A stretch of DNA of 64,000 nucleotides from Falsiroseomonas algicola (GTDB lineage: Bacteria; Pseudomonadota; Alphaproteobacteria; Acetobacterales; Acetobacteraceae). The number at the start of each line of letters is the position of its first letter. The stretch's first letter is position 1. The stretch spans positions 1-64,000 of the forward strand of contig NZ_JAAIKB010000019.1 of the NCBI RefSeq assembly GCF_011040385.1, written 5' to 3'. The notes beneath the pieces were generated by a model, which had not been told where the DNA came from, did no database searches, and saw only the letters and a program-made list of their open reading frames with translations. The position numbers and the translations under genes are program-made. Positions 1 to 58,038 of this stretch are shown here, piece after piece.

Positions 1-225
1 CGTCGCCGTGCCGATCGCGGCCAGGTCCGCCGTCTCGAAGGCCGCCACCTGCGCCGTCGTCAGCGATGCCAGCTGCGTCGAGCTGAAGCCTGCCATCTGG
101 GCTGTCGTCAGGGCGACGAGCTGCGCCGTCGAGAAGCTGCGGATTTCCGTCGTGCTCAGACCGGCGATCGTCGCCGTCGTCAGAGTCTGGATCTGGTCGG
201 TGGTCAGGTTGGAGATCAGTGTCAT
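1..225 (-). CDS. octapeptide-repeat Thr/Ser-rich protein, N-terminal part (runs off the left edge)
   Basis: Seventy-five codons are visible from an ATG at 225 to the window edge without a stop. After a six-residue leader the chain consists of octapeptides of the form L-[TS]-T-x-[QE]-[ILMV]-x-[AGST]: eight clear units (for example LTTDQIQT, LSTTEIRS, LTTAQVAA) and part of a ninth, giving a 24-nt period in the DNA. GGAAAG stands about 10 nt before the ATG. There is no N-terminal signal peptide, as expected for type I secretion substrates, whose signal is C-terminal and here out of view. The gene is divergent from a type I exporter pair and an OGT-like glycosyltransferase, so being their substrate is a reasonable inference. 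Similar Thr/Gln octads occur in large surface or secreted proteins of alphaproteobacteria (family knowledge, not searched). Function unknown. Confidence 0.8.
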   Translation of the reverse strand, partial: MTLISNLTTDQIQTLTTATIAGLSTTEIRSFSTAQLVALTTAQMAGFSSTQLASLTTAQVAAFETADLAAIGTAT

Positions 226-694
226 CTGCGGCGTGCTTTCCTGCTTGATCCGTTGTCGCTTTGCTGGGAGGGCAGGGTTTTCCCTGAGGCCTGCCCCATC
301 GATCTCAATGTCAGGTCCACCAGCCGCGGTCGGGGGCGGCCGAGCGGTGTCCTGGGAATGTCGGAGGTGAGTGGGTCGGGCAGCCGTGGCGCGGATTGGG
401 CACGATTTTCTCCATCCTCCCGGCCCCTGCTGGACTGGGATGAAGCCAAATCCTTTGGCCCGTTACGACAGCGCCCGAAGTGCCGAGGCGCACCGCAGTG
501 AGCGAGGCACCATCCAAATGAGCCGCTCCATGCCAGGGCATCCTGGTCCCCGACTATGAACCGCTTTTTAACGCTTCTTCCGAGACGAGCCTTTGCTACG
601 ACCCAGGCGACGCGGCCTGCGATGGCGATCCTGGTTCAGAGCCGATCAACAGCGCCATGGTGCCTTGTGATGCCCGGCAACACTGGAACTCGCT
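226..694. other. intergenic region between divergent repeat protein and exporter genes
   Basis: No convincing gene. Short open frames at 371-559 and 556-1134 on the plus strand lack family features, and the second runs into the exporter in another frame. The region should hold divergent promoters for the repeat protein (minus) and the exporter (plus). A relatively AT-rich patch near 556-575 is the best place for the latter, but no clear -35/-10 pair is visible. Confidence 0.5.
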
Positions 695-2836
695 TTGGCA
701 CCGGAATTCACCGCCCTCCGCAGCCTGTTCCTCATCGCGATGCACCACGGCGTGCAGCTTGCACCCGAGGAACTGCCGCCCGTGGTCAAGGGCGACATGA
801 CGGGCACCATCCTCCGCGCGATGGAGCAGGTCGGGCTCTCGCCCAAGGTGCTGCGCAGCCGGCGCTGGGAGGATGCGGCAGGGCTGGGCACGGCCTATCC
901 CGCCATCGCCATCTGCAGGGATGGCAGCTGGATCATCCTCGTGCATGTCGTTGCCGCGGCCAATGGCAACCGCATGGCGGCCGTTCTGGACCCTGCAGAC
1001 GAGCAGGCCGGCGTCACGCTGGTCACAAGCGACGACTTCATCGCCCGCTGGAGCGGCACGATGATCCTGGTCCGCAAGCAGCACCGCCTGACCGACGAGG
1101 ACCAGCCCTTCGGACTGCGCTGGTTCCTGCCTGAACTCATCCGCCACGGCCGTCTCCTCTCGGGCGTCGCCGTGGCCGCCATCATGTGCAACCTGATCAG
1201 CTTCGCGATCCCGCTGCTGTTCCAGGTCATGATCGACAAGGTGATCGCGCACCGATCGACCCAGACCCTTTTCGCCATCGTCGTGGTCTTCGTGCTGCTC
1301 GTCGCCTTCGATGCCCTCTTCAGCCTGGCGCGGCAGCGCCTCATGCTGCTGGCCGGCAACAAGATCGATGGCCGCCTCAACGCCCGCACCTTCAGGCACC
1401 TGCTGGGCCTGCCGCTTTCCTTCTTCGAGGCGAATACGGCGGGCGTCCTGACGCGGCACATGCAGCAGGCCGAGAAGCTGCGGCACTTCCTGACAGGACG
1501 CCTCTTCCAGACGCTGCTCGATGCGGTCGCCATGCCGGTGCTGCTGGTCCTGCTGCTTCTCTACAGCTGGCAGCTGACCCTGGTCGTGCTGGGGTTCTCG
1601 GCGGCCATCGCCGCGGTGATCGGCGGGCTGGTGCCGTGCTTCCGCCGCCGGCTCGACCGCCTCTACCAGGCCGAAGGCGGGCGCCAGGCCTTCCTGGTCG
1701 AGACCCTGCACAACATGCGGGCGGTGAAGGCGCTGGTCCTGGAACCGACGCGGGAGAAGACCTGGAACACGAAACTGGCCGAGACGCTGCGCAGCAGCGC
1801 CGCCGTCGGCAGGCTCGGCGCAGCGGGCAACGTGACGACCGGCGCGCTCGAGAAGCTCATGCAGATCGCCGTGCTGGCCATCGGCGCCATGCTCGTCTTC
1901 GACGGCCACCTGACCATCGGCGCCCTCGTCGCCTTCAACATGCTGTCCTCCCGCGTCACCGGGCCGCTTGTCCAGATCGTGGCGCTGATCAACGAGTATC
2001 AGGAGGCCGCGCTCTCGGTCGCGATGCTTGGCACGGTGATGAACACGGCGCCGGAGCGCGCTGGGCAGGACCGCCGCGCACGCCCGGCCATCGCCGGCAA
2101 CTTCGTCTTCGACGATGTCGGCTTCATCTACCCAGGTGCCGCGGCGCCGACGCTCAACCGCATCAGCTTCGCCATCCGGGAGGGCGAGGTTATCGGCGTC
2201 GTCGGCCGATCGGGCTCCGGCAAGACGACGCTGACGCGCGTGCTCCAGGGCATCGCCGTGCCGCAGCAGGGCGTCGTCCGGTTGGACGGTACCGATCTGC
2301 GGCATATCGACCTTGCCCATCTGCGGCGCAACGTCGGGGTCGTGCTGCAGGAGAACCTGCTGTTCCGGGGCACGATCCGGGAGAACCTGGCCGCGGCCCG
2401 CCCCGATGCGTCCCTGCCGGAGATCGTGCAGGCGGCCCGGCTGGCGGGGGCGGAGGAATTCATCGACCGGCTGCCAAGATCCTATGACACGATGGTCGAG
2501 GAGAATGGCGCAAACTTCTCGGGCGGACAGCGCCAGCGCCTGGCGATCGCCCGCGCGCTGCTGACCCGCCCGCGCGTCCTTGTCTTCGACGAGGCGACGA
2601 GCGCGCTCGATCCGGAAAGCGAGGCGATCATCCAGCGCAACCTCGCGGACATCGCGCGTGGGCGGACGATGATCATCGTCTCGCACCGCCTCTCCTCGCT
2701 TGTCCACGCGGATGCGATCCTGGTTCTTGAAAACGGGCAGGTTGCGGACTTCGCGTCGCATGCCGTCCTGCTCCAGCGCTGCGACGTCTATCGGCACCTA
2801 TGGCAGCAGCAGACACAGCACCTCCAGGCGGCCTGA
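695..2836 (+). CDS. type I secretion ABC transporter with degenerate C39 peptidase-like domain (HlyB type)
   Basis: Inner-membrane exporter ATPase of a type I secretion system. Residues 1 to about 130 form a C39 peptidase-like domain that lacks the catalytic cysteine, as in HlyB. About 145-420 is the transmembrane domain. About 465-700 is the nucleotide-binding domain, with Walker A GRSGSGKTT (near 504), signature SGGQRQRLAIARAL (near 608), Walker B VLVFDEATSALD and the H-loop SHRLSS. The start is a TTG with GGA 7 nt upstream. It is supported by the homologous exporter beginning with ATG at 63867, whose first residues align (MAPEFTALR against MAPALTAIR). The stop overlaps the HlyD-type gene by 37 nt. 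The degenerate C39 domain implies binding of an unfolded repeat-type substrate and not leader cleavage (family knowledge). Confidence 0.93.
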   Translation: MAPEFTALRSLFLIAMHHGVQLAPEELPPVVKGDMTGTILRAMEQVGLSPKVLRSRRWEDAAGLGTAYPAIAICRDGSWIILVHVVAAANGNRMAAVLDPADEQAGVTLVTSDDFIARWSGTMILVRKQHRLTDEDQPFGLRWFLPELIRHGRLLSGVAVAAIMCNLISFAIPLLFQVMIDKVIAHRSTQTLFAIVVVFVLLVAFDALFSLARQRLMLLAGNKIDGRLNARTFRHLLGLPLSFFEANTAGVLTRHMQQAEKLRHFLTGRLFQTLLDAVAMPVLLVLLLLYSWQLTLVVLGFSAAIAAVIGGLVPCFRRRLDRLYQAEGGRQAFLVETLHNMRAVKALVLEPTREKTWNTKLAETLRSSAAVGRLGAAGNVTTGALEKLMQIAVLAIGAMLVFDGHLTIGALVAFNMLSSRVTGPLVQIVALINEYQEAALSVAMLGTVMNTAPERAGQDRRARPAIAGNFVFDDVGFIYPGAAAPTLNRISFAIREGEVIGVVGRSGSGKTTLTRVLQGIAVPQQGVVRLDGTDLRHIDLAHLRRNVGVVLQENLLFRGTIRENLAAARPDASLPEIVQAARLAGAEEFIDRLPRSYDTMVEENGANFSGGQRQRLAIARALLTRPRVLVFDEATSALDPESEAIIQRNLADIARGRTMIIVSHRLSSLVHADAILVLENGQVADFASHAVLLQRCDVYRHLWQQQTQHLQAA

Positions 2837-4263
2837 CCGCCTCCGGCACCGTTTGGACCGGCAACCTCCTTGCGCGCCTGCGCCCAGGACGGGCGGGCCG
2901 CCGCGCGCCCGCGCCACGTGTGATCGCCGACGCCCTGGCCTTCCAGGATGAGCTGGACCAGGTGATCGCCGAGCCGCCGCCGCCCTGGCTCCGCGGCCCT
3001 CACCTGCTGGCGATGCTCCTCCTGGTCTCGATGTTCGGGATCTCCGCCCTGCTGCGGACCGATATCGTCGTCATGGGCCAGGGCCGGCTGCTCACGGACA
3101 GCCCGCCCATCATCCTGCAATCGCTGGAACGGTCGGTCATCCGCGAGATCCGGGTGAGGCCGGGCGATGCGGTGCGTCAGGGCGACGTGCTCGTGGTGCT
3201 GGACTCCACCTTCGCGCGGGCGGACCGCGAGGCGCTGCTGATCCAGCAGCGGCGGCTGCAGGCCGAGCAGGCGCGGATCGAGGCCGAGCTGGCCGGCCTG
3301 CCCTATCCCGCCGGTGTCCGGGGCGCCGATCACGCGCTGCAGGCACTGCTCCATGCGCAGAGGCAGGCGCAGTACAACGCCCGGCTGCAGGGATTCGACG
3401 AGCAGATCGGCGGCCTCGAGGTCGCCTTGCGCTCCGCCCAGGACTCGGCCGGGACCCTCGCGCAGCAATTGTCGATCGCGGTGGATGTGGAGAGGGCCCG
3501 GAGCCGCCTGCTGGAGGAGCAGGTCGGGTCCCGCCTGCAATACTGGGGGGCGCGAAACCAGAGGCTGCAGGCGGAACGCGAGCACCGCGAAACGCTGAGC
3601 CGGATCGCCGAGCTGCGGCACCAGCTGCAGGCGCTGCAGGCCACCCGCCAGGGCTTCGCCGATGAATGGCGCCGGCAGGTCCTGGAAGACTCGGTCCGGG
3701 TCATCGGCGAACGGGCACGGGTCGAGGAAGCCCTGGCCAAGGCCTCGCTCGTCGATTCGATGACGGTCCTCGCAGCGCCCGCCGACGGCATCGTGCTGGA
3801 GGTCGTGCGGCGCGCCGCAGGCTCGGTGACGCGGGAAGCGGAACCGCTCGTCAGCATCATTCCCGACGGCGTGCCCCTGATCGCGGAGATCGGCATCGCA
3901 TCCTCCGATGTCGGGCATGTGCGGGCAGGGGCCGATGTCGTGCTCAAGGTGGATGCCTTTCCCTTCCAGCGCCACGGTCATGTCAGCGGCACCTTGCGGT
4001 CGCTCAGCCTCGCCTCCTTCTCCCAGGGCGCGCAGGGCGTTCCTGGAGAGCCCGAGGCGCCGGTCGCCGCAAACGGTTCGGGCGCCTTCCACCGCGCCAG
4101 GGTGGAGATCACGGCGCAGCAGCTCGTGGACCTCCCGCCCGGGGCCCGTCTGCTGCCCGGCATGACGCTGACGGCGGAGGTGATGGCGGGCACGCGCAGC
4201 GTGCTGTCCTACTTCCTGAACCCGGTCCTGCGTGGCTTCCGGGAGGCTGCGCGCGAACCCTGA
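2800..4263 (+). CDS. HlyD-family type I secretion periplasmic adaptor
   Basis: Membrane fusion protein linking the inner-membrane exporter to an outer-membrane TolC-like channel (none is encoded in the window). The N-terminal cytoplasmic tail is about 65 residues long. One membrane segment follows near 67-90 (HLLAMLLLVSMFGISALL), then a lipoyl-like half motif (IREIRVRPGDAVRQGDVL), a long Gln/Arg/Ala-rich coiled coil (about 140-330), and the returning barrel with IIPDGVPLIAEIGI. Length (487 aa) is usual for HlyD/PrtE. The ATG at 2800 lies inside the exporter gene and indicates translational coupling. It probably works with the exporter at 695 on the octad-repeat protein encoded divergently at the left edge; this pairing is inferred from position. 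Confidence 0.92.
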   Translation: MAAADTAPPGGLTASGTVWTGNLLARLRPGRAGRRAPAPRVIADALAFQDELDQVIAEPPPPWLRGPHLLAMLLLVSMFGISALLRTDIVVMGQGRLLTDSPPIILQSLERSVIREIRVRPGDAVRQGDVLVVLDSTFARADREALLIQQRRLQAEQARIEAELAGLPYPAGVRGADHALQALLHAQRQAQYNARLQGFDEQIGGLEVALRSAQDSAGTLAQQLSIAVDVERARSRLLEEQVGSRLQYWGARNQRLQAEREHRETLSRIAELRHQLQALQATRQGFADEWRRQVLEDSVRVIGERARVEEALAKASLVDSMTVLAAPADGIVLEVVRRAAGSVTREAEPLVSIIPDGVPLIAEIGIASSDVGHVRAGADVVLKVDAFPFQRHGHVSGTLRSLSLASFSQGAQGVPGEPEAPVAANGSGAFHRARVEITAQQLVDLPPGARLLPGMTLTAEVMAGTRSVLSYFLNPVLRGFREAAREP

Positions 4264-4464
4264 CGGTCGCCGTCCCTCACAAACGGTTAACAGGCCGATG
4301 GCACCTCCTGGTCTCGAAGGATGGCAAGGAGTGCCGGCACAGCTGGACAGGCGATCCGCGGCTCTCCGCGCGATCCACGCCAGCGGACGGCGCTTCTTCC
4401 CGCCCCGCCACGATCGACCGGCCGGCCTGATGCCGGAGCGACCGGTCCGGCTGCAGGAAGAGCG

Positions 4465-6312
4465 ATGATCCAGGACACGGCCTTCGCCCCCGACACGAAC
4501 TGGCTTCGCAGCCGCCTTGGCGTCGACCTGCCGCCCGCCGAACTGGCAAGGCGCCGGGCGATGCTGGGCGGCATGCGGCTGGAGGCGCTGCTGCCGCTGA
4601 TCGAGGGTGCGGGAAGCGCCTTGCTGCGCATCCAGGCCTATGCCGACTGGATCACCGCGAATCCCGCATCGCCTCAGCGCATTGCCGCCTGGTTCAACCT
4701 GGGCGCGGAGTGGTCCGCGTTCGGCGACAAGGCGAAGGCCGCCTCCGCCTACCAGCAGGCCCTGCTGGCCGACCCCACCTTTCATCCGGCGGCGGTCAAT
4801 CTTGGCCTGGCGCTCGAAGCGCTGGGCCAGCAGGATGCGGCCCTCGCGTGCTGGACCAGGGCGCTGCAGCCGGACGGCGCTCGTACCGCGCTGCTCAATC
4901 ATCGCGGGCGGCTGCTGGAGGAGCAGGGGCGCCTGGCCGATGCCGAGAAGGCGCTGGTCCAGAGCCTGCTGCTCGATCCCGCCCAGCCCGACGTCATCCA
5001 GCACTGGCTGCACATCCGCCAGAAGACCTGCAGCTGGCCCGTCGTGCCGGAAGGCCTGCCCGGCCTTCCCGCGGCCGCGCTGCGCGCGGCCTGCGGTCCG
5101 CTGGGTGGATTGGCGCTGGTGGATGATCCCGATGAGCAGCGGCGCATCGCGCAGGACTGGCTCATCCGGAAGGTTCCGCCGGCGCCCGAGCGCCTGAGCC
5201 CGCCTGGCGGCTACCGCCATGACAGGATCCGCCTCGGCTACCTCTCCTCCGACTTCTGCCGCCACGCGATGAGCTTCCTGATCGCCGAGATGCTGGAACT
5301 GCATGACAGGAGCAGCTTCGAGGTCTTCGGCTACTGTTCGAGCCCCGAGGACGGAAGCGACATCCGCGATCGCGTCATCCGGGCGCTCGACCACCACGTA
5401 CCGGTGCGGCAGTTGGATGATACGGCCGTCGCCCGACGCATCCGCGAGGATGAGATCGACATCCTCGTGGACCTGAACGGCCTGACCAGGGGCGCCCGGC
5501 TGCACACGCTGCGCTGGAAGCCAGCGCCCGTGCAGGTGACCTATCTCGGCTACATCGGATCGGTCCCGCTGCCCGAACTCGACTACCTGCTCTGCGACGA
5601 CTACGTCATCCCGCCCGGCTTGCGTCCGCAGTACATGCCCGCGCCGTTGAGCCTGCCCGGCATCTATCAGGCCAATGACGGCCGCTCACCCGAACTGCCC
5701 GTGGCAACGCGCGCGGCAGAGGGGCTGCCCGAGGACAAGTTCGTCTTCTGCTGCTTCTGCAGCACCTACAAGATCACGCCCGAGATCTTCGACGCGTGGA
5801 TGGAGATCCTCCGATCCGTCCCCGATTCCGTGCTGTGGCTGGTTTGCGAGAACGAGACCGCGCGCGCGAACCTCGCGGCACGCGCCGGGGCGGCGGGCAT
5901 CACGGCGGAACGTCTGATCTTCGCGCGGCGGGTGGAGCCGAGCCTCTATCTCGCGCGCATGGCACTGGGCGACCTGTTCCTGGACACGTCGCCCTACAAT
6001 GCCGGGACGGTGGCGAGCGATGCGCTTCGCATGGGCCTGCCGCTGGTGACGCTGTCGAAGCAGCCTTTCGCGTCGAGGATGGCGGGAAGCCTGCTGAACG
6101 CCATCGGTCTGCCGGAGACGGTCACCGATACCGTCGAAGAGTATGTTCGTCTGGCCGTATCCATCGCCTGCAGCCCGGAATTGCTTGCGACCTTCCGATC
6201 CCGGATCGGCGGGGACCGCTGGCAGCACACCCTCGGCGACGTGCGCGGCTTCGTCGCGGGCCTCGAGGACATCTTTCGCCGCGTCAGGATACGCCCGGAC
6301 GCGCTCGGCTGA
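4465..6312 (+). CDS. TPR-containing O-GlcNAc transferase-like (SPINDLY/GT41) glycosyltransferase
   Basis: Cytoplasmic glycosyltransferase of the GT41/OGT type, 615 aa. TPR-like helices span about 70-185 (for example AWFNLGAEWSAFGDKAKAAS), and the catalytic part begins near 255 with GYLSSDFCRHAM, which contains the His aligned to the OGT catalytic-region His. The Lys of FCSTYKITPEIF corresponds to the UDP-contacting Lys. The UDP-binding motif reads SPYNAGTVASDALRMGLPL, where animal OGT has NGHTTGMD, so the His is missing here. Family members transfer sugars to Ser/Thr (OGT, SPINDLY) or Asn (HMW1C-like). The ATG at 4465 has GGAAGAG upstream; a longer frame to 4321 looks non-coding. It follows the exporter genes by 201 nt, suggesting that the Thr/Ser-rich repeat protein is its target (inference). 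Confidence 0.88.
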   Translation: MIQDTAFAPDTNWLRSRLGVDLPPAELARRRAMLGGMRLEALLPLIEGAGSALLRIQAYADWITANPASPQRIAAWFNLGAEWSAFGDKAKAASAYQQALLADPTFHPAAVNLGLALEALGQQDAALACWTRALQPDGARTALLNHRGRLLEEQGRLADAEKALVQSLLLDPAQPDVIQHWLHIRQKTCSWPVVPEGLPGLPAAALRAACGPLGGLALVDDPDEQRRIAQDWLIRKVPPAPERLSPPGGYRHDRIRLGYLSSDFCRHAMSFLIAEMLELHDRSSFEVFGYCSSPEDGSDIRDRVIRALDHHVPVRQLDDTAVARRIREDEIDILVDLNGLTRGARLHTLRWKPAPVQVTYLGYIGSVPLPELDYLLCDDYVIPPGLRPQYMPAPLSLPGIYQANDGRSPELPVATRAAEGLPEDKFVFCCFCSTYKITPEIFDAWMEILRSVPDSVLWLVCENETARANLAARAGAAGITAERLIFARRVEPSLYLARMALGDLFLDTSPYNAGTVASDALRMGLPLVTLSKQPFASRMAGSLLNAIGLPETVTDTVEEYVRLAVSIACSPELLATFRSRIGGDRWQHTLGDVRGFVAGLEDIFRRVRIRPDALG

Positions 6313-48910: not shown

Positions 48911-50134
48911 GTGGCCATCACCGAAGCGCCCTGCATGCCGTCGACGCCCGCGCAAACCGCGCGGCGCGGCTCCGTGCTGCCTGGGCGAAGAGCCTTGCTG
49001 ACCCTCGGCCTCGGCGGCGCGGCGAGCCTGACCCTGAGGCCGCGCACCGTCGCCGCGCCGGCGGCCAATCCCGGCATCATGCACCTGCCGCCAGCACCGC
49101 CCCTGGCCTCCACCGCCGATGTGCGGGACATCGCGGAATGGCGCCAGTTCCGCGACCGGTTCGTCGCGCGCGATGGCCGCGTCATCGATACCGGCAATGG
49201 CGGCGTCTCCCATTCCGAAGGCCAGGGCTTCGCGCTGCTGCTCGCCGAATGGTGCGCGGACCGCGCCAGCTTCGAACGCATCCTGTCCTGGACGCGCGAC
49301 AATCTCGCCCGCCCGCGCGACAACCTCTTCGCCTGGTCCTGGCGGCCACACCAGGCCATCGCGGTGCCGGACAACAACAACGCGACCGATGGCGACATCG
49401 CCATCGCCTGGGCGCTGCAGCGCGCCGCCGCGCGCTGGTCGGTCCCGGCGTGGGAGGACATGGCCGCCGCCATCACGCAGGACATCGTCAGGCTCTGCAC
49501 CCGCGACATCGCCGGACGGACGGTACTGCTGCCGGGTGCCTATGGCTTCACGCGGCCGAATGCCTGCGTGGTCAACCCCTCCTACTACATCCTGCCCGCC
49601 ATCCGCTCCCTTGCGCCGCTGGTGCCGGGGGCGGAGCTGCGGCGGATCGATGCCGATGGCCGCCACATCCTCTCCGCCGGCCGCTTCGGCAATTGGCGCC
49701 TGCCGCCGGACTGGCTGCACATCGATGCCGCGACGGGCCGCATGACGCCCGCCAGCGGCTGGCCGCCGCGCTTCTCCTGGGATGCGATCCGCGTGCCGCT
49801 CTACCTCGCCTGGGCCGGGCTGAACGAGGCCGACTCGCTCCGTGCCGCGGCCGCCTTCTGGGAAGCCGCGCGGCCGGAGACGCTGCCCGCCTGGACGGAC
49901 CTGCATACCGGCGCGCTATCCCCCTATCCCGGGCATGAGGGGGTGCGCGCCGTCGCCTCCCTCACCCTGTCCACGCGTCGCGCGGGGGCCGGGATCGTCC
50001 GGCCGGATTTTCCCGCCGTGTCCTCGGCGCCGGACTACTACGCGGCGGCGCTGATCATGCTGGCGCGCATGGCCTCCATGGAAGCCGGCCGGGGCGCCGC
50101 CGCGGGCGCGGTGCCGGCCGAAGGCGCCGCCTGA
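48911..50134 (+). CDS. glycoside hydrolase family 8 (endo-1,4-beta-glucanase, BcsZ-like)
   Basis: Secreted cellulase-type hydrolase, 407 aa. The N-terminal export signal has a twin-arginine-like start (GRRALLTLGLGGAASLTL). The GH8 catalytic Glu is in GGVSHSEGQGFALL and the Asp in PDNNNATDGDIAIAW. VNPSYYILPAIR and RFSWDAIRVPLYLAWAGLN are standard GH8 blocks. It starts at a GTG with GAGGAG upstream; an ATG at 48935 is an alternative. In many bacteria such an enzyme belongs to a cellulose synthase operon. Here no bcs genes are present; its neighbours are signalling genes, suggesting c-di-GMP-linked exopolysaccharide turnover (inference). A decayed paralogue lies at 6651. Confidence 0.93.
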   Translation: MAITEAPCMPSTPAQTARRGSVLPGRRALLTLGLGGAASLTLRPRTVAAPAANPGIMHLPPAPPLASTADVRDIAEWRQFRDRFVARDGRVIDTGNGGVSHSEGQGFALLLAEWCADRASFERILSWTRDNLARPRDNLFAWSWRPHQAIAVPDNNNATDGDIAIAWALQRAAARWSVPAWEDMAAAITQDIVRLCTRDIAGRTVLLPGAYGFTRPNACVVNPSYYILPAIRSLAPLVPGAELRRIDADGRHILSAGRFGNWRLPPDWLHIDAATGRMTPASGWPPRFSWDAIRVPLYLAWAGLNEADSLRAAAAFWEAARPETLPAWTDLHTGALSPYPGHEGVRAVASLTLSTRRAGAGIVRPDFPAVSSAPDYYAAALIMLARMASMEAGRGAAAGAVPAEGAA

Positions 50135-50202
50135 ACGCCAGCCGCGCGGGACGCGCGGCCGGGAATGTTTCCCGGCCGGCGCGATCGGCGCTATGGTCAC
50201 GC

Positions 50203-52698
50203 ATGGGTCTTCGCCTGGGTTTCCGCGGCAGGGACGGCGGCAAGGACAGGAGCAGGGGCGCCGGTGCGGCCCGGCTGGCACTCGGCGCCTTCGCCCTGCT
50301 GGTGGCGATCCCCGCCTGGATGGCAGCCGAAGCCATCATCGACCGCGCGGAAAGGCTGGTCGCGCAGGACGCCTATCTCCGCGCCAGCGCCGCCGCCGCC
50401 GCCGTCGGCCATGTCGCATCCCATGTCGTGGACGACGCGAATTTCGCGACCATCCTCGCGCGGCGTTGGCTCACGCTCCGCGCCAGCGGCGACGACGTCG
50501 CACGGGCGGAGGCGGAGCGGATGATGCGCACCATCATCGGCCAGGCCGCCGCCGGCCGCGCCGCGCTGGCCAGCATCGTCATCGCCGGGGCGGATGGCGA
50601 CGTGATCTTCCACTCCGATCCCGCCGCGCCGCCCTTCTCCGTCGCCGACCGTGCCTATTTCACCGAAGCGGAAGCCGGGTTCACGGGCCTGCGCATCAGC
50701 GCCCCCTTCTCCGGTCGCTATGTCACCCAGCCCCTCTTCGCCGCGGTGGCGCGGCTGGAGGATCCGGGCGGACGCTTCGCCGGCGTGGTCATCTCCTCCG
50801 TCAGCCCGCGCGACATTTCCGTCCGCCTCGGGCAGATGACGCCGCGGACGAACGATATCCTCGCCATCCTGCGGGAGGAGGGGGAGCTGCTCGCCCGCAG
50901 CCATGGCGTGGCCGCGTTGCTCGGCCTGATCATCCCGCTGCCGGAACCGGCGATCGCTGCGCTGCAGCGGGACGGCGCCTTCACCTTCCGACAGGCCAAC
51001 CAGTTCACCGGCCGCGACCAGTTCGTCGCCGTGCAGGCCGTGGACGACACCAACCTCGTTGCCTTCGCCGCCGTCGATGCGGAAGCGGAGATGGAGGCGA
51101 TGCCGCTGCTGCGCGGCGCGGCGCGCATCGCCGTCGTCGCCGTCACGCTCGGCGCGCTGCTGGCGCTGCTGTTCGGCCGGCTGGCGGTCCGCAGCATGGC
51201 ATTGGCCGGCACGGCCGAGGCGCTCCGCCGGGGCCGCGAACAGGTGGAACGCCTGCATGCCGGCCTGCCCGTCGGCCTCTTCCTCCTCGATGTCGAACCC
51301 GATGGTGCGGCACGGCTGCTCTATCGCGCCGGCGGCGCGCAGGACCCGCCGGCGGAGATGCTGCAGGAAGCGCTGCGCACCACGCTGTCGGCGGAAACCG
51401 GCAGCTTCGAATGGACCGCGCCTTCCGCCTTCGCCCCCCGGCCGACGCTGGTGACGAGCCTTCACCGCCTGTCGCTCCGTGCCGATGGCGGCGGCGAGGT
51501 CGTCGGCTACACCCGCGACGTGACAGCGGAGCGGGAGGCCGCAGCCCAGGCCGATGCCGCGCGGCGGGAGTTGGACCGCACGCTGGAAGGCGCACCGATC
51601 GTCGTCTTCCGCGTGCTGATCGCGCCGAACGGGCGCGGCACCAAGACCTATGTAAGCCGTTCCATCGAACGCATGACGGGCTGGCCCTATGACCAGGTGA
51701 ACGCCCCGGGCGGCCTGCGGTCCATCTTCGATCCGCCGCAGGCCGGCTTCACGGGCGACCGCACGCTGTTCGCCGGTGCCGATGAATGGTCGAAGGACCT
51801 GCGCCTGCGCTGCGCCGATGGCCGCCTGCTGGCGGTGAAGGTCACGCTGACGGTCATCGCCCGCCTGCCCGATGGCAGCGCCGATGCCGTCGGCTACATC
51901 GCCGACGTCACCGCCGAACGCGCCGCCGATGCGCGCGCCATCGCCGCCGCGCGCCTCGCCTCGTTGGGTGAGATGTCGGCCAGCCTGGCGCATGAGCTGA
52001 AGCAGCCGCTGCAGGCCATCGCGCTGGCGGCCAACAACGCCCGCACCGCCATGCGGCGCGACCGCGTGGACATGGCGGAACAACGGCTGGACCGCATCGC
52101 CGGCTATACCCAGCGCGCCGCCGCGCTGATCGAGCATCTGCGCCGCTTCGCCCGCGGCGCCGACGAACAGGCCGCGCCCCAGCCCGTGCCGCTGGCGGAT
52201 GCGGTGGAAGGCGCGCTGGTGCTGACTGGCGCGGGTCTGCGGGAGGCGGGGATCGAGATCCGCTGCACGCTCGGCGATCCGCCGCCCGTGGTGCTGGGCC
52301 ACCTGGTGGCGCTGGAGCAGGTGCTGGCCAACCTGCTCGCCAATGCGCGGGACGTGCTGGCGACCGCGCCCGGTGACGCACCGCGCTGGATCGCCATCAC
52401 CGCCGCACCGGCCGCTGCCGGCTTCACCGCGCTGCGCGTGGCGGACAGCGGCGGCGGCCTGCCCGCGGAAGTGCTGGCCCGGCTGTTCGAGCCCTTCGTC
52501 ACCACCAAGGGGCCGGACCGCGGCACCGGCCTCGGGCTTTCCATCTGCCATGGGCTCGTCGTGGCGATGGGGGGCAGCATCACGGCGGAGAACGGGCCGG
52601 ATGGCGCCGTCTTCACCATCCACCTGCCGGATGCGCCCGCGCTGCCGGATGACGGCAGGCCGGCCTCCATCTCTGCCTCGGAACCCAGCAACGGTTAA
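50203..52698 (+). CDS. PAS-domain sensor histidine kinase with periplasmic dCache-like sensor
   Basis: An 831-aa kinase. Membrane segments near 24-45 (LALGAFALLVAIPAWMAAEA) and 305-330 flank a dCache-like domain (IVIAGADGDVIFHSDPAAPP, FSVADRAYFTEAEAG). Two PAS-like regions follow (LHAGLPVGLFLLDVEPDG; GAPIVVFRVLIAPNGRG with SRSIERMTGWPYDQV). The H-box is LGEMSASLAHELKQPLQAIA with His near 595. ATPase motifs are NLLANARDVLATA, VADSGGGLPAE, LFEPFVTTK and GTGLGLSICHGLV. It is 68 nt behind the GH8 gene and parallels the kinase at 45395. No cognate regulator is adjacent. Confidence 0.92.
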   Translation: MGLRLGFRGRDGGKDRSRGAGAARLALGAFALLVAIPAWMAAEAIIDRAERLVAQDAYLRASAAAAAVGHVASHVVDDANFATILARRWLTLRASGDDVARAEAERMMRTIIGQAAAGRAALASIVIAGADGDVIFHSDPAAPPFSVADRAYFTEAEAGFTGLRISAPFSGRYVTQPLFAAVARLEDPGGRFAGVVISSVSPRDISVRLGQMTPRTNDILAILREEGELLARSHGVAALLGLIIPLPEPAIAALQRDGAFTFRQANQFTGRDQFVAVQAVDDTNLVAFAAVDAEAEMEAMPLLRGAARIAVVAVTLGALLALLFGRLAVRSMALAGTAEALRRGREQVERLHAGLPVGLFLLDVEPDGAARLLYRAGGAQDPPAEMLQEALRTTLSAETGSFEWTAPSAFAPRPTLVTSLHRLSLRADGGGEVVGYTRDVTAEREAAAQADAARRELDRTLEGAPIVVFRVLIAPNGRGTKTYVSRSIERMTGWPYDQVNAPGGLRSIFDPPQAGFTGDRTLFAGADEWSKDLRLRCADGRLLAVKVTLTVIARLPDGSADAVGYIADVTAERAADARAIAAARLASLGEMSASLAHELKQPLQAIALAANNARTAMRRDRVDMAEQRLDRIAGYTQRAAALIEHLRRFARGADEQAAPQPVPLADAVEGALVLTGAGLREAGIEIRCTLGDPPPVVLGHLVALEQVLANLLANARDVLATAPGDAPRWIAITAAPAAAGFTALRVADSGGGLPAEVLARLFEPFVTTKGPDRGTGLGLSICHGLVVAMGGSITAENGPDGAVFTIHLPDAPALPDDGRPASISASEPSNG

Positions 52699-52848
52699 TT
52701 CAGGGGTCACATCCCCGGCGTCTCCTCCACCCGTGGAATGCCGTCGCCACGGCATTGCGCATGGAAGACCCAGAGCGGCCGGGAACATCCCGGCGGAGGA
52801 CCGAACAGTGGCCAGGATGAACGCCGCAACGGCGCATGGAGCGCGCCC

Positions 52849-54333
52849 ATGAGCCTGGAATCCGCGCTGCTGCGCGCCACCGCCGGAATCCGCCACACCT
52901 CCCGCCAGATGGAGGCGACCTCCCAGAACGTCGCCAATGCAGGAGTCGAAGGCTACACGCGCAAGACCGTGCGCGGCGAGCAATCCGCCGCCGGTGTGCG
53001 CAGTTCCACGCCGCAGCGCGACGTCGACCGTTCGCTGCGCACGGAAGCGCGCGGCGCGCGCGGGGAAGCGGCGGCGGCCTCGCTCCGCGCCGATGTGCTC
53101 GGCCCGCTGGCCGAATTGCAGGGCGCGCCGGCGGATGGCGCCAGCCTCGGTGGCCAGATCGGCTCGCTGCGCGACCGCTTGACCGAACTGCGTGCCAATC
53201 CGAACGACACCGCCGCGCAGGCGGAGGCGCTGGGCGTCGCCAAGGATGTCGCCGCACAGCTGAACGACCTTTCCGGCGCCATCACGCGGTCGCGGCAATC
53301 CGTGCAGGACGGGCTGCGCACGGATGTCGATACCGCCAACGCCCTGCTGCGGGATGTCGCCGCGCTGGACAAGCAGGCGCGCGCCATGCGCAGCGCCGGG
53401 CTCGACGATGCCGGGCTGCTCGACCGCCGTGATGCCGCGATCGGCCAGCTTTCCGAACTCATCGGCGTGACGCCGGCGGAGGGCCGGAACGGGGAACTGA
53501 CGCTGATCCTGCAGGGTGGCGCCGTGCTGCCGCTGGAGGAGAATGGCAGCCCGCTCGGCATCGCCGATGCCGTCATCGCCCCCGGTTCCTACTACGGCGC
53601 GCCGGCGGGCACGTTGCCGGGCCTGACCTTGAACGGCATCCCGCTGTCGGACGTGCCGCGTGGCGGCCGCATCGGTGCTGGCCTCGAGCTGCGGGACGAG
53701 ACGCTGCCGCGCATGACGGCGGAGCTCGACACCCTGGCCACCACCATGGCCGGGCGCCTCAGCGAACAGGGGCTGACGCTGTTCACCGACAATGACGGTT
53801 CGGCACCACCCGCCGCCGGCAGCGCGGCCGCGGTGGGCTTCGGGGGCCGCATGATCGTGAACCCCGATGTGGCGGCGAAGCCTGCGCTGCTGCGCGACGG
53901 CACCAGCGATGTCCCCGCCTTTCCGCCCAACCCGGACAACCAGGCGGGCTACACGAAGCTGCTCGACCGCGTGCTGGACTACGCCTTCGGCAACCAGCGC
54001 GCCGCGGGCGTGCCGCATGCGGCGATCCCCGGCACCGGCCTTGGCCCGGATGGCACGCTCACCGCCTCCTTCTCGCCGCCCCGCGCGCTGCTCGACTACG
54101 CCGCGGCGCTGACCTCCGCCCATGCCAAGGAAGCAAGCGACGCGGCGGCGGAGGAGATGACCACCGCCAGCCTCTCCACCCAGATCAACGCCCTGGTGCA
54201 GAAGCGGGAAGGCGTCGATGTGGATGCCGAGATGGCGTCGATGGTGACGCTGCAGAATGCCTATACCGCCAATGCGCGCGTGATCTCCGCGATCCAGTCC
54301 ATGTGGGACGCGCTCATGGGCATGGTCCGCTAG
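52849..54333 (+). CDS. flgK: flagellar hook-associated protein 1 (FlgK)
   Basis: Hook-filament junction protein, 494 aa. The N-terminal flagellar rod/hook motif is intact (SLESALLRATAGIRHTSRQM, SQNVANAGVEGYTRKTV), and so is the C-terminal one (AYTANARVISAIQSMWDALM). The central part is shorter than in enterics. The ATG at 52849 is chosen because homology begins there (GGAG 7 nt upstream); the frame continues to 52738 in non-coding sequence. flgL follows after 13 nt. Confidence 0.93.
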   Translation: MSLESALLRATAGIRHTSRQMEATSQNVANAGVEGYTRKTVRGEQSAAGVRSSTPQRDVDRSLRTEARGARGEAAAASLRADVLGPLAELQGAPADGASLGGQIGSLRDRLTELRANPNDTAAQAEALGVAKDVAAQLNDLSGAITRSRQSVQDGLRTDVDTANALLRDVAALDKQARAMRSAGLDDAGLLDRRDAAIGQLSELIGVTPAEGRNGELTLILQGGAVLPLEENGSPLGIADAVIAPGSYYGAPAGTLPGLTLNGIPLSDVPRGGRIGAGLELRDETLPRMTAELDTLATTMAGRLSEQGLTLFTDNDGSAPPAAGSAAAVGFGGRMIVNPDVAAKPALLRDGTSDVPAFPPNPDNQAGYTKLLDRVLDYAFGNQRAAGVPHAAIPGTGLGPDGTLTASFSPPRALLDYAAALTSAHAKEASDAAAEEMTTASLSTQINALVQKREGVDVDAEMASMVTLQNAYTANARVISAIQSMWDALMGMVR

Positions 54334-54346
54334 AAGGAATCCGGCC

Positions 54347-55420
54347 ATGACGATCTCGGGCTTCGCCGCCGTGGACCGCGCCACGGAAGCCGCCAGCCAG
54401 CTGCGCGTGCGGCTCGCGGAACAGACGCGCCAGACCTCCAGCGGCCAGCGCGCCGCGACCTATGCCGGGCTCGGCGGCGATGCGCGCCGCGCGATCGACC
54501 TGCGCACGGAAGTCGCGCGGCATGAATCGCTCACCCGCGCGGCGGAACGCGGGGAGGCCCGCGCCGCCGTCACGCAATCCGCGCTGTCGCGCATCACCAA
54601 GATCAGCACCGACATGGTCGCGACCGCCACCGCGCTGCTCAGCGGCGGCGCCACGCAGGTCAGCGCCGCCGCGATCGGCGCCCGGTCCGCGCTGCGCGAG
54701 GTGACCGGCATGATCAACGAACGCTACCAGGGGGAGAGCCTGTTCGGCGGCGCCGACCTGGATGGCACGCCCATCCCCGGCGCGATCGAGGACAGCCCGC
54801 TCTTCGCCGCCATCCGCGACGCGATGAAGGGCATGGCGCAGGGCGGTGGCGCGGCGTTGCGCGGCACGCTGCGCGACCTCGGCGCCAGCAACGACCCCGC
54901 CATCACGCCCTTCTCCGCCTATGCGACGGCGGCGCAGAACGGGGAGGTGGAGGACAGCCTGACCTCCGTACCGGTCAGCGAGGGCGGCGCCGTGCAGATC
55001 GGCCTCTATCCCAACCGCAATGCCGGCGCGATGCCGTCGAAGGATGCGGACAGCACGGGATCCTGGGCGCGGGACCTGATCTACGGCCTGACGGTCATCG
55101 CCAATCTCGACCAGCTCGGCGTCACCGATGGCGCGGACTACCAGCAGGTGGTGACGGGTGCGCTGGGCGCGCTGCGCGCCGGCCTTTCGGGCGTGAGCGA
55201 CGAGGCCGCGGGCCTCGGCACCGCGGAACAGCGCTTGGCCGATTCCCGGCTGCGGCACAGCGAACTCGCGACGCAGCTGGAGGGGCAGCTCTCCGAGATC
55301 GAGGGCGTGGACCTGGCGGAAGCGATCAGCCGCGCCCAGGCGACGCAGGCGCAGCTGGAGGCCAGCTACCGGTCGCTCGCCATGCTCTCCGGCCTGTCGC
55401 TGACCAAGTTCCTGAGCTGA
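54347..55420 (+). CDS. flgL: flagellar hook-associated protein 3 (FlgL)
   Basis: Second junction protein, 357 aa, flagellin-like fold. The N-terminal coiled coil reads ATEAASQLRVRLAEQTRQTS, followed by GQRAATYAGLGGDARRAIDL. FGGADLDGTPI and the C-terminal SRAQATQAQLEASYRSLAML, LSGLSLTKFLS-type end fit FlgL. AAGGA lies 8 nt before the ATG. A terminator stands 30 nt behind the stop. Confidence 0.92.
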   Translation: MTISGFAAVDRATEAASQLRVRLAEQTRQTSSGQRAATYAGLGGDARRAIDLRTEVARHESLTRAAERGEARAAVTQSALSRITKISTDMVATATALLSGGATQVSAAAIGARSALREVTGMINERYQGESLFGGADLDGTPIPGAIEDSPLFAAIRDAMKGMAQGGGAALRGTLRDLGASNDPAITPFSAYATAAQNGEVEDSLTSVPVSEGGAVQIGLYPNRNAGAMPSKDADSTGSWARDLIYGLTVIANLDQLGVTDGADYQQVVTGALGALRAGLSGVSDEAAGLGTAEQRLADSRLRHSELATQLEGQLSEIEGVDLAEAISRAQATQAQLEASYRSLAMLSGLSLTKFLS

Positions 55421-55449
55421 CGCGAAGCGCCAGCGCCGGGCGACCGACG

Positions 55450-55484
55450 CCGCGCCATCCCGGAAGGGGTGGCGCGGTTTTTTG
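55450..55484 (+). terminator. rho-independent terminator of flgKL
   Basis: CCGCGCCATCCC-ggaa-GGGGTGGCGCGG forms a 12-bp stem with one G-T pair, followed by six T residues at 55478-55483. Confidence 0.92.
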
Positions 55485-55504
55485 TTGTCTGGGTCAGGAG
55501 AGTC

Positions 55505-55568
55505 GGGGAAGGCGCTGCCTTCCCCAAACCCCATCCGCCAGGGGGGAGACCCCCCTGGACCATCGTCA
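55505..55568 (+). repeat. two-hairpin intergenic repeat, copy B
   Basis: GGGGAAGGC-gct-GCCTTCCCC (55505-55525), then AAACCCCATCCGCC, then AGGGGGGAGACCCCCCT and GGACCATCGTC. The first 21 nt are identical to copy A at 36908-36928. Confidence 0.8.
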
Positions 55569-55574
55569 ATTCAC

Positions 55575-55683
55575 GGGTTCCAAGGGCCCGCTGGCCCTTG
55601 GCCGGGGGTGCAGGGGGGCGGAGCCCCCTTGCATAAACGCTCGGTGCAGGGGTGAGGGGAGGGCAACGCCCTCCCTGCGGGGC
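55575..55683 (-). repeat. two-hairpin intergenic repeats, copies D and E (inverted, diverged)
   Basis: Read on the minus strand from the transglycosylase stop: GGGAGGGCGTTGCCCTCCC with a CACCCC spacer (copy E, partial), then AAGGGGGCTCCGCCCCCCT, CACCCCCGGCC, AAGGGCCAGCGGGCCCTTGG (copy D). The stems have changed sequence but kept pairing, and the two copies face copy B. Confidence 0.6.
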
Positions 55684-55686
55684 CGC

Positions 55687-56502
55687 TCAGAACAGCCGCC
55701 GGTTCCCGATGCCGCCCAGCCCCACTTCCGCCACCACATGCGGTGCCCGCGCGGCCACCACCTGCACCAGCGGCGCCGGCGCGGCACTCGGTGCCGGGTT
55801 GGGCGCTTGGCTCGGCAGATTCTGCCCACGCCCGGCGACGGGGATCGGCGCGGCCCGATAGGCATCCAGCGCCCCCCGCGGCGGCGGCGCCACCGCCGCC
55901 AGCGCCATGCCGCCCGGCGCGGGCGGCGCCGCGGCCAGGCGCGGCAGCGCGGCCGGCTCCGGCGTCGGCGACCGGCGTTCATTCGCCATCACTGCCGCCA
56001 GGCGGGCGCGGTAGCGCTCCGCGAATTCCGGCGTCTGCGAATGGTAGTGGCCGGAGGCCACCGTCCAGTCGCCCGCCCGCTGCTGCAGGCTCGTCAGGAA
56101 GCGCGCGGCGTAGCGCGCGCTGGCCTGCGGGTCGAAGGCCTCCTCCAGGCTCGCGAAGGCATTGGGGTGGTGGCGCAGGTTGATCTGCATGCAGCCCACA
56201 TCGATGGACCGCACGCCGGAGGCCTGCAGCGCCCGCACCGCTTCCACCGCCGCCTCGCGCGATGGGAAGAAACTGCCGCGTCCCTCCGCATTGATGGTCC
56301 AGGGCCAGGGGTCGAAGGCGCCGGTCTGGGGATCGCGCCGGCCGCTTTCCACGCGCCCGATGCCCAGCAGCAGCCGGTCGGGGATGCTGAACTCGGCCTC
56401 CGCGGCCGTGATGGCCGCGCGGCACAGCGCGACCTGCGCGCGCGCGGGCGCACCCAGGATGGACAGCGACAGCAGCAGCAGGAAAGCCAGGATGCGGTTC
56501 AT
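55687..56502 (-). CDS. lytic transglycosylase (SLT domain), possibly flagellum-associated
   Basis: Periplasmic murein hydrolase, 271 aa, with signal peptide MNRILAFLLLLSLSILGAPA. The SLT domain (about 25-170) has the catalytic Glu in LLLGIGRVESGRRDP, and ASGVRSIDVGCMQINLRHHP is the usual G-x-M-Q motif. The last 100 residues are Ala/Pro-rich and probably disordered. It lies between flgKL and fliX on the opposite strand. Opening the peptidoglycan for the flagellar rod is a plausible job. Confidence 0.88.
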   Translation of the reverse strand: MNRILAFLLLLSLSILGAPARAQVALCRAAITAAEAEFSIPDRLLLGIGRVESGRRDPQTGAFDPWPWTINAEGRGSFFPSREAAVEAVRALQASGVRSIDVGCMQINLRHHPNAFASLEEAFDPQASARYAARFLTSLQQRAGDWTVASGHYHSQTPEFAERYRARLAAVMANERRSPTPEPAALPRLAAAPPAPGGMALAAVAPPPRGALDAYRAAPIPVAGRGQNLPSQAPNPAPSAAPAPLVQVVAARAPHVVAEVGLGGIGNRRLF

Positions 56503-56712
56503 GCGCCGCGCGTCGCAACGCCTGTGCCAGCAGCGCTACCAAATCTGAACGACGACGATCTTCGCGACAGCGCGCGCAGCCGCGATCACGAAACCGTGCG
56601 CAGCGTCTGGCGCTGCCGCGGCCCCGGCCCACGCCGGGCGCATTGTTCACACCGCAGAAATCGACGGCGCGCAAATGGGCAGTCGCGAAACCCAGAAGGG
56701 GTGCCCTTGCCC

Positions 56713-57159
56713 ATGTTGCGCGTCGCCACCGCCGCTTCCCCGTCGCTGCCGCCCGCGGCATCGCGGCTGCGCGCGCTGCGGGGCGATTTCGGCGCGCTGC
56801 TCGGCAGCAGCGAAGCCGGTAGCGGCATCATGGCCGGCGGCGGTGCGCAGGCGGCCGCCGGCCTCTTCGCCATCCAGGGCATTGCGGACCAGCCGCAGGA
56901 TCCACCGCCACGCCGGCGCCACGCCTCGCCCCAGGATGCCGCGCAGCAGGGCCTCGCCTTGCTCCGGACCGTGCAGCGCCAGCTGCTGTCCAACGAACCC
57001 CCCTCGCTGGAGGTGCTCGAAGCCGCCGCGGCGGAAGCCGATTCCCTCGCCGCCGAAGGGGCGGAAGCGCATCGAATCTGTGCCCCCGTGGCACTGCGCC
57101 TGCGCATCGAGATCGCCAAGCGGCTGCCGCCCGACGGCGCCGCCGCCGGCCGCGCGTGA
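56713..57159 (+). CDS. fliX: flagellar assembly regulator FliX
   Basis: A 148-aa protein of the alphaproteobacterial FliX family, which couples class II flagellar assembly to FlbD activity in Caulobacter. The diagnostic part is AGLFAIQGIADQPQDPPPRR, then QDAAQQGLALLRTVQRQLLS and the end VALRLRIEIAKRL. The ATG at 56713 follows AGAAGGGG; an in-frame GTG at 56701 is possible. It is upstream of the CtrA-like regulator and motBA. The 210 nt between it and the divergent transglycosylase gene should hold both promoters. Confidence 0.85.
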   Translation: MLRVATAASPSLPPAASRLRALRGDFGALLGSSEAGSGIMAGGGAQAAAGLFAIQGIADQPQDPPPRRRHASPQDAAQQGLALLRTVQRQLLSNEPPSLEVLEAAAAEADSLAAEGAEAHRICAPVALRLRIEIAKRLPPDGAAAGRA

Positions 57160-57237
57160 GGCGCGGTGGACATGTCCTTTTTCAGCGACGCCGCGGCGTC
57201 GCGCACTCCCCCTGCGAAAATCGCGAGGCAAAGACCG

Positions 57238-58014
57238 ATGAGAATCCTGCTCGGCGCCACGGCCGATGATCAAGCGCCTCTCCGCCGGGCGCTGACCGGT
57301 GCCGGCCGTTTCGTCGAACAGGCCCCGGATTTCGACGGCATCGGTGCCACCACCGCGGCCAGCGGCCCCTTCGATGCCGTGGTGCTCAGCGTGGACGATC
57401 TCAGGCGGGAAGCGCTGCCCGTGCTGCGCGACATCCGCCGCCAGGGCGTGCAGGCACCGATCCTCGTCATCGCCGGTGCCGTCAGCCCCGCGGAGGAAGC
57501 GGCCGCGCTGAACCATGGCGCCGATGACCTGGTGGCGCGCCCCGTCGCCAATCCCGTCGTGGTCGCACGCGTGCAGGCCATGGTCCGTCGCACCGCCGCC
57601 CATGCGCCGACGCTGCTGGTCTGCGGCAATGTCGCGCTGGACCGCGACCGACAGGCCGTCTCCGTCGATGGCCGCCCCGTGAACATCACGAGCCGGGAGT
57701 TCGAGGTGCTGGAGACGCTGCTGCTCCGCCGCTCCGCCCTGCTGAGCAAGGAGCGCTTCATGAGCCGCCTCTATGGCGACGAGGAAGGCCCCGACCAGCG
57801 CATCATCGACGTCTTTGTCTGCAAGCTGCGCCGCAAGCTGGCCGCCGCCGGCGCGGCGGAGATCGTGCGCACCGTCTGGGGCCTCGGCTATGTGGCGGAG
57901 GATCCGGGCCCCGCCGCCGTCGCCGCCGCGCGCGCCCGCTATGCCGCCGGCCAGCCTCGTGCCCGCCGCGCGCACCTCGTCCCCGCCGCCGGCTTCGTCC
58001 CGGCCGGCGCCTGA
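57238..58014 (+). CDS. CtrA-like regulator with degenerate receiver, in the flagellar cluster
   Basis: A 258-aa sister of the protein at 47814. The receiver starts MRILLGATADDQAPLRRAL; the acceptor strand reads AVVLSVDDLRRE (Ser in place of the first Asp position), and the conserved Lys is absent (LVARPVANP). The DNA-binding domain is CtrA-like: ITSREFEVLETLLLRRSALL, SKERFMSRLYG, DVFVCKLRRKLAAAGAAEIV, TVWGLGYVAEDP. The ATG at 57238 is chosen; the frame begins at 57166. It stands between fliX and motB, 24 nt ahead of the latter, so it probably regulates flagellar genes (inference). Confidence 0.88.
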   Translation: MRILLGATADDQAPLRRALTGAGRFVEQAPDFDGIGATTAASGPFDAVVLSVDDLRREALPVLRDIRRQGVQAPILVIAGAVSPAEEAAALNHGADDLVARPVANPVVVARVQAMVRRTAAHAPTLLVCGNVALDRDRQAVSVDGRPVNITSREFEVLETLLLRRSALLSKERFMSRLYGDEEGPDQRIIDVFVCKLRRKLAAAGAAEIVRTVWGLGYVAEDPGPAAVAAARARYAAGQPRARRAHLVPAAGFVPAGA

Positions 58015-58038
58015 CGATCGCGGCGCAGGAGGCACCCC

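Follow-up and report, generated by a model that had tools for sequence, protein, structure and literature searches.

A predicted route for O-glycosylation and type I export of ALTTAQ octad-repeat proteins in Falsiroseomonas algicola and other proteobacteria

Introduction

Why would a gene for a protein built almost wholly of eight-residue repeats lie back to back with an exporter pair of the HlyB/HlyD type, and why would a glycosyltransferase gene follow directly? This question is raised by the left end of contig C10 of Falsiroseomonas algicola (73,618 bp; genome of 6.56 Mb in 90 contigs), of which bases 1–64000 form the window analyzed here. An initial annotation of the window proposed that the repeat protein is O-glycosylated in the cytoplasm and then leaves by type I secretion. 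The genomic evidence gathered in this study supports that proposal through the co-conservation of the three parts, the N-termini of the repeat proteins, and a covariation between the class of the enzyme and the composition of the octad. The genes, their linkage, their co-occurrence, and this covariation constitute the directly observed part of the system. Judging from the sequences, we consider it likely that these parts form a self-contained system for cytoplasmic O-glycosylation of the octad repeats followed by type I export of the glycoprotein.

The locus set is present in many other proteobacteria and looks like an undescribed route to a bacterial surface glycoprotein. It offers a likely function for the widespread Pfam repeat PF20080 and the adjoining enzymes of glycosyltransferase family 41 (GT41) and, if the reading is right, amounts to type I secretion of an O-glycosylated protein, a counterpart to the HMW1C and accessory-Sec systems.

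Results

Gene layout at the left end of contig C10

The octad-repeat gene starts at position 225 and runs on the minus strand to position 1, whereas the HlyB-like ATP-binding cassette (ABC) exporter (695–2836) and the HlyD-type periplasmic adaptor (2800–4263) lie on the plus strand, beyond an intergenic region (226–694) that presumably holds both promoters. A GT41 protein glycosyltransferase gene with tetratricopeptide repeats (TPRs) follows at 4321–6312, 57 bp past the HlyD stop on the same strand; it matches PF13844 (Glyco_transf_41) at E 4.3e-71 (240.2 bits, cut-off 25), and alignment with relatives suggests that its start is more likely at 4465 than at 4321. The divergent arrangement and the position of the transferase behind the exporter pair are thus as the initial annotation described them.

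The repeat protein is incomplete, since base 1 of the window is also the first base of the contig. Its N-terminal 75 codons, which encode the putative acceptor and secreted substrate, read MTLISNLTTDQIQTLTTATIAGLSTTEIRSFSTAQLVALTTAQMAGFSSTQLASLTTAQ... before leaving the contig, and the N-terminus MTLISNLTTDQIQ resembles those of complete relatives. The repeat is already named in Pfam (ALTTAQ repeat, PF20080), with scores of 62.2 bits for the window fragment and 485.8 bits for a complete protein of 1146 residues on contig C55 of the same genome (cut-off 26.4). Self-identity of the fragment reaches 0.34 at lag 8 and 0.39 at lags 16 and 24, against 0.04–0.19 at all other lags up to 29, and the repeat is therefore not due to chance. 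The two or three hydroxyl residues first ascribed to each octad are right on average (mean 2.62 over 8 octads).

A second, paralogous set (L006), absent from the initial annotation, occupies the opposite end of C10. Its exporter begins within the window (63867–64000, plus strand; whole gene C10:63867–65999), is 70% identical to the first exporter over 711 residues, and is followed beyond the window by HlyD, a methyltransferase-glycosyltransferase fusion, two GT41 genes of different classes (a and c, described below), and an ALTTAQ N-terminus that leaves the contig at that end. Contig C8 begins within an ALTTAQ C-terminus and probably carries the missing end of this right-hand copy, because in a relative (L147) the N-terminus of this copy and the C-terminus found on C8 belong to a single protein. 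The three close GT41 genes of the genome all adjoin ALTTAQ genes on C10.

Co-conservation of the three parts

Co-occurrence was surveyed in a family sample of 150 genomes and a phylum sample of 398 genomes, and since the genomes are related, the Fisher p-values are only indicative. Within the family sample, PF20080 was found in 24 genomes, GT41 (E ≤ 1e-60) in 31, and a close ABC exporter (at least 870 bits) in 13. The co-conservation that the initial annotation had asked about was evident: GT41 accompanied 23 of the 24 PF20080 genomes versus 8 of the 126 others (Fisher p 2e-19), and the close exporter 12 of 24 versus 1 of 126. All 19 family genomes with a strong GT41 match (at least 500 bits) were PF20080-positive. 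One of the eight GT41 exceptions (G005) has an ALTTAQ-like open reading frame (ORF) adjoining GT41 that was missed by the PF20080 cut-off, and genus g64 (G063, G138) retains ALTTAQ, GT41, and exporter, each on separate contigs. PF20080 matched 21 genomes of the phylum sample; among 12 stretches inspected in 10 genomes, ABC and HlyD genes adjoin ALTTAQ in G193, G225, and G183, and GT41 is present in G517, G496 (contig C2), G253 (contig C92), G193, and G225.

The linkage is equally visible from the enzyme side. GTDB genomes were scanned with an alignment of 13 GT41s, which returned at least 592 relatives; the best 80 were kept with 10-kb flanks, and ALTTAQ ORFs in the fetched loci were called with a regular expression of our own design, distinct from the Pfam model (the call in G342_C37 is a probable false positive of this expression, although PF20080 matches that genome). 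An ALTTAQ ORF lay within 10 kb in 44 of the 80 loci, in 31 of these at 500 bp or less, and the share by GT41 score was 22/27 at 640 bits or above, 1/7 between 510 and 640 bits, and 21/46 between 400 and 510 bits. On the GT41 tree, from which 14 short loci were omitted, the ALTTAQ label takes 8 changes compared with a mean of 19.0 for shuffled labels (none of 500 as low). The linkage of ALTTAQ and GT41 spans alpha-, beta-, and gammaproteobacteria and Geobacteraceae, with hosts that include members of Acetobacteraceae, Roseomonadaceae, Azospirillaceae, Paracoccaceae, Beijerinckia, Oxalobacteraceae (Duganella, Massilia, Rugamonas), Cupriavidus, Paraburkholderia, Methylocucumis, and Geobacteraceae.

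Closed loci with the set were found on plasmids. On plasmid pA of Cereibacter sphaeroides 2.4.1 (record NZ_CP030273), an ALTTAQ protein (WP_011836189; 1561 residues; PF20080, 1192.4 bits; annotated 'ICE nucleation protein') is encoded beside GT41 (WP_011836188; annotated 'O-linked acetylglucosamine transferase'), ABC (WP_011836187), HlyD (WP_011836186), and a methyltransferase, and this closed locus in a laboratory strain opens the system to ordinary genetics. Another neighbor of this ALTTAQ gene encodes a Calx-beta/RTX protein that matches LapA weakly (L222:3778–6864). ALTTAQ ORFs adjoin GT41, TolC, HlyD, and ABC genes on plasmid pCC1524 of Pseudomonas asturiensis; on a plasmid of Pseudoroseomonas cervicalis the genes after them encode ABC, HlyD, a UDP-glucuronic acid decarboxylase family protein, and two GT41s.

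Enzyme class and octad composition

The solved structures closest to the window GT41 are human OGT (E 1e-80), Thermobaculum OGT, XcOGT, and SPINDLY, together with structure 5a01, which is recorded simply as an O-glycosyltransferase. Residues D265, H269, and K438 are invariant in 13/13 aligned GT41s and align with D554, H558, and K842 of OGT (chain numbering minus 10); PMC4683255 describes the role of Lys842, the catalytic Lys of OGT, and also describes His920, Thr921, and Thr922. At the positions of OGT His901, His920, Thr921, and Thr922, the window enzyme has Tyr, Gly, Thr, and Val, so that, as aligned, its predicted contacts with the uridine diphosphate (UDP)-sugar differ from those of OGT proper, whose donor is UDP-GlcNAc. 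Two main active-site signatures were recognized among 157 GT41 ORFs, namely DHKYGT[T/V/I] (107 ORFs, class a, including the window enzyme with DHKYGTV) and DHKHHTT (36 ORFs, class c), the latter keeping the His/His/Thr/Thr of OGT. OGT and SPINDLY belong to the same TPR-containing GT41 family, and the equivalent of OGT Lys842 is kept, but unlike them the window-type enzyme is linked to one putatively dedicated substrate and exporter.

When the Ser/Thr fraction at octad positions 2–4 was calculated for each of 93 ALTTAQ stretches, position 4 ranged from 0.57 to 1.0 in the 26 stretches with a class-c enzyme, from 0.05 to 0.92 in the 47 with class a only (three above 0.5), and from 0.10 to 1.0 in the 20 without GT41. 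After loci with GT41s at least 97% identical had been merged, a position-4 value of at least 0.5 was found in 24/24 class-c loci versus 3/45 class-a-only loci. Positions 2 and 3 did not shift between the classes (medians 0.68/0.70 and 0.89/0.87, respectively); position 3 never fell below 0.58 in class-a-only loci and dropped to 0.22–0.39 in four of the eight class-c-only loci. Both types occur on contig C10, where the left copy (C10L, class a) has a position-4 value of 0.25 and the right copy (C10R, classes a and c) a value of 1.0. The hydroxyl pattern of the octad tracks the class of the neighboring GT41, as expected of an enzyme and its acceptor. Ser/Thr density as such was also considered and was no guide to whether an ALTTAQ protein had a GT41 nearby; only position 4, set against class, gave a separation.

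The position-4 prediction was written down before 28 new stretches were fetched. Class c was present in eleven of these (position 4, 0.77–0.88) and class a alone in five (0.00–0.10), one of the latter (L267) having a poor GT41 match and atypical octads. After the removal of two of the eleven class-c records that had already been used, the prediction held in 14/14 new loci; four stretches without GT41 and one with a truncated GT41 were left unscored, and the rule did not extend to seven Rhizobiaceae plasmids whose OGT-like GT41 carries the signature DHKHHST. With a putative acceptor in which one octad recurs, in up to hundreds of copies, and with enzyme classes that track one residue of it, the system makes it possible to test directly how GT41 enzymes choose their sites, a problem of long standing for OGT.

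The putative acceptor and its octads

The octad consensus of the putative acceptor, a protein consisting almost wholly of octads, reads L-[T/S]-[T/S]-x-Q-[L/I/V]-x-[A/G], and Asn is almost absent from the Ser/Thr-rich repeats (6 of the 1146 residues of the complete C55 protein). The window fragment matches HeliScrew4 (PDB 9zem), a solved protein of 120 residues, at E 5e-11, and our helical-screw model of the repeat rests on this similarity. HeliScrew4 shares the octad length and register, but its octads read L-[T/S]-P-[E/D]-[Q/K], neither glycosylation nor secretion has been reported for it, and we found no paper on it in the open-access literature. Matches of the octad to leucine-rich repeats and to transcription activator-like effectors were set aside as composition effects.

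A DUF1217 protein (L133:9249–10550; C55, approximately 301.2–302.6 kb) carries about 150 residues of ALTTAQ repeats inserted in its middle and adjoins a flagellin gene (C55:303825). Apart from the export system, the ALTTAQ repeat can act as a mobile insert domain.

The exporter and the proposed export route

The window exporter contains the PF00664 and PF00005 domains, and its top NCBIfam match is TIGR01846 (HlyB; 608.9 bits, below the curated cut-off of 725.55). Despite this sub-threshold score, it probably works like a type I ATPase, because it has the ABC domains and is paired with HlyD (TIGR01843, 277.7 bits, above the cut-off of 208.65). No TolC-type channel adjoins the window genes, and genes of the OEP family are located on contigs C77 and C6. 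At what we take to be the place of the catalytic Cys in the C39-like N-terminal domain, Thr or Ser was found in 33 of 34 aligned rows, of which the window exporter is one (one row was gapped); HlyB likewise lacks the Cys, and a cleaved leader is therefore unlikely.

A Sec signal on the repeat protein, which the initial annotation had named as fatal to its proposal, did not appear: among the 37 distinct ALTTAQ N-termini listed, 36 lack Lys and Arg in their first 20 residues and none shows a strong hydrophobic core. The N-termini start directly with the repeat, each start having been placed at the Met nearest to the first octad on its upstream side, a choice that could hide an upstream extension. 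The search for a C-terminal type I signal or calcium-binding repeats, also advised at the outset, gave a divided answer. In 19 of the 34 complete C-termini, the final octad is followed by A-[L/I]-[F/Y] no more than three residues from the stop, whereas A-L-[F/Y] occupies the same place in 2 of 10,738 interior octads; in Methylocucumis (L215), ALTTAQ and RTX repeats (PF00353, 50.2 bits, cut-off 23) share one polypeptide adjoining GT41. PF00353 had no match in the ALTTAQ proteins or fragments scanned from the F. algicola genome. In beta- and deltaproteobacterial relatives and in G517, the repeats end in a region that looks calcium-binding, with EF-hand scores below the cut-off.

Could the exporter instead serve another substrate, such as an RTX protein, with GT41 glycosylating an ALTTAQ protein that stays inside or leaves otherwise? 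The association with ALTTAQ is closer for GT41 than for the exporter (23 versus 12 of 24 genomes), the F. algicola genome has 181 PF00353 matches, and the Cereibacter ALTTAQ gene has the Calx-beta/RTX neighbor mentioned above. However, the PF00353 matches listed all lie on contigs other than C10, the L215 fusion joins both repeat types in one polypeptide, the complete ABC-HlyD-TolC set stands beside ALTTAQ and GT41 in P. asturiensis, and 12 of the 13 genomes with a close exporter have PF20080, the thirteenth (G145, 66% complete) having GT41 beside the exporter. We regard this explanation as unlikely. GT41 relatives without ALTTAQ directly precede a distant ABC and HlyD pair in L213 and L217, and from this arrangement GT41 may also serve type I systems with other substrates.

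Discussion

Proposed mechanism and its weighing

In the system that we propose, the acceptor would be the long octad protein, each octad probably starting a short capped helix of a helical screw on which one or two hydroxyls are exposed. The neighboring TPR/GT41 enzyme would bind this acceptor in the cytoplasm and O-glycosylate the octad hydroxyls; the covariation points to position-3 Ser/Thr as the site of class a, the type found in the window, and to position-4 Ser/Thr as that of the OGT-like class c where it is present. The glycoprotein would then be exported without a Sec signal by the dedicated ABC-HlyD pair and a TolC-type channel, probably by means of an uncleaved C-terminal signal that often ends in A-[L/I]-[F/Y], and outside the cell it may form a mucin-like surface fiber or coat.

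A number of observations weigh against this proposal. Twelve of the 24 PF20080 genomes lack a close exporter, 36 of the 80 GT41 loci have no ALTTAQ ORF within 10 kb (some being cut by contig ends), 20 of the 93 ALTTAQ stretches have no GT41, and the 1146-residue protein on C55 has neither GT41 nor an exporter nearby. No RTX repeat or other recognized type I signal was found in the ALTTAQ-only proteins of the Acetobacteraceae family. The class-octad rule is broken by L165, a clear exception, by L191, which lies on a 5.9-kb contig and may have lost a class-c gene, and by G253_C92, which has one recognizable class-a domain. Six Rhizobiaceae DHKHHST loci with ALTTAQ have position-4 values of 0.16–0.30 and limit the rule, because their enzymes are closer in sequence to class c than to class a. 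Finally, the tree of 77 class-a loci contains only three independent switches (3/3 in agreement, sign test p 0.25).

The small number of switches and the Rhizobiaceae enzymes, which fit no simple rule, leave appreciable room for a reading by shared ancestry, in which two old ALTTAQ lineages have kept their own enzymes and no chemistry underlies the link between class and position 4. All three switches nevertheless agree with the rule, contig C10 holds both types with matching octads, and the eight class-c-only loci, which sit on other branches, all reach at least 0.57. We give this reading about one chance in three.

Comparison with known systems

Cytoplasmic glycosylation before dedicated export is a known kind of system. 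In the serine-rich repeat glycoproteins with accessory Sec, neighboring enzymes O-glycosylate Ser/Thr repeats in the cytoplasm before dedicated export; those systems use other transferases and another export machine and are found in Gram-positive hosts. The residue modified by HMW1C is Asn, and the adhesin is exported by two-partner secretion. In HMW1/HMW1C and other N-glycosyltransferase (NGT) systems, a GT41 enzyme accompanies a large secreted adhesin and the partner that secretes it, as here, but the window system differs from HMW1C in its Ser/Thr-rich, nearly Asn-free repeats, the TPRs of its enzyme, and its ABC-HlyD exporter.

The nearest studied precedent is FlmG of Caulobacter, according to PMC7591256 a soluble cytoplasmic enzyme with TPR and GT-B parts that modifies flagellin with pseudaminic acid before export and binds its substrate through the TPR part; in the window system, an octad-repeat protein would take the place of flagellin, and a type I exporter that of the flagellar apparatus. 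The precedent also raises the alternative that GT41 acts on something else, for example flagellin, its adjacency to ALTTAQ being historical. FlgK, an FlgL-type flagellin-like gene, MotB, and MotA are encoded at 52.7–59.9 kb of the window, and Pseudorhizobium flavum has two flagellin genes near ALTTAQ and GT41. Yet the two strong flagellin matches of the F. algicola genome map to C66 and C55, away from the close GT41s of C10, the adjacency of GT41 and ALTTAQ recurs in several classes, and the octad composition tracks GT41 class. Another substrate, such as flagellin, thus appears improbable to us, and O-glycosylation of the octad protein remains the preferred reading.

We found no published description of this combination of ALTTAQ, GT41, and type I exporter in the open-access literature, to which the search was confined; as far as that search extends, the combination and the class-octad covariation are new. 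PMC10462132 includes an 'ice nucleation protein' in the Caulobacter operon CCNA_02815-02816, and PF20080 matched Caulobacter vibrioides in the phylum search, perhaps, though not necessarily, through the same gene.

Possible sugar donors

An epimerase-family gene with at least 500 bits to the Pseudoroseomonas cervicalis decarboxylase-family protein was found in eight of the 141 loci of the first round and in three of the 28 new ones, and this UDP-glucuronate-decarboxylase-like gene is accompanied by a class-c GT41 in 11/11. The neighborhood hints at a UDP-pentose donor for class-c loci; the gene scores below all NCBIfam cut-offs, and its name rests on the annotation of one record. As a speculation that we hold to be possible but doubtful, judged from sequence, the helical-screw protein may bear a two-letter glycan code on the two neighboring hydroxyls of each octad, class a writing position 3 and class c position 4 with a different donor, perhaps a pentose produced by the decarboxylase-like enzyme; hundreds of sugars would be set in register on one polypeptide in the cytoplasm, and the mucin-like rod would then be exported by the type I system.

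In the Rhizobiaceae plasmid loci with the third signature, DHKHHST (L272–L277), a UDP-galactopyranose mutase gene follows in L274 and L277, which suggests that these loci use a different sugar.

Other genes of the window and genome

Downstream of the first GT41 gene, the window carries genes resembling a molybdate-uptake operon, as judged from the ORFs alone. Between the two export sets, at 48911–59933, a glycosyl hydrolase family 8 gene accompanies the FlgK, FlgL-type, MotB, and MotA genes. A fourth, distant GT41 ORF (C11:693753–696139; L226:8752–11139) does not adjoin ALTTAQ, and its surroundings resemble a polysaccharide cluster, with neighbors similar to a sugar nucleotidyltransferase and a dehydratase.

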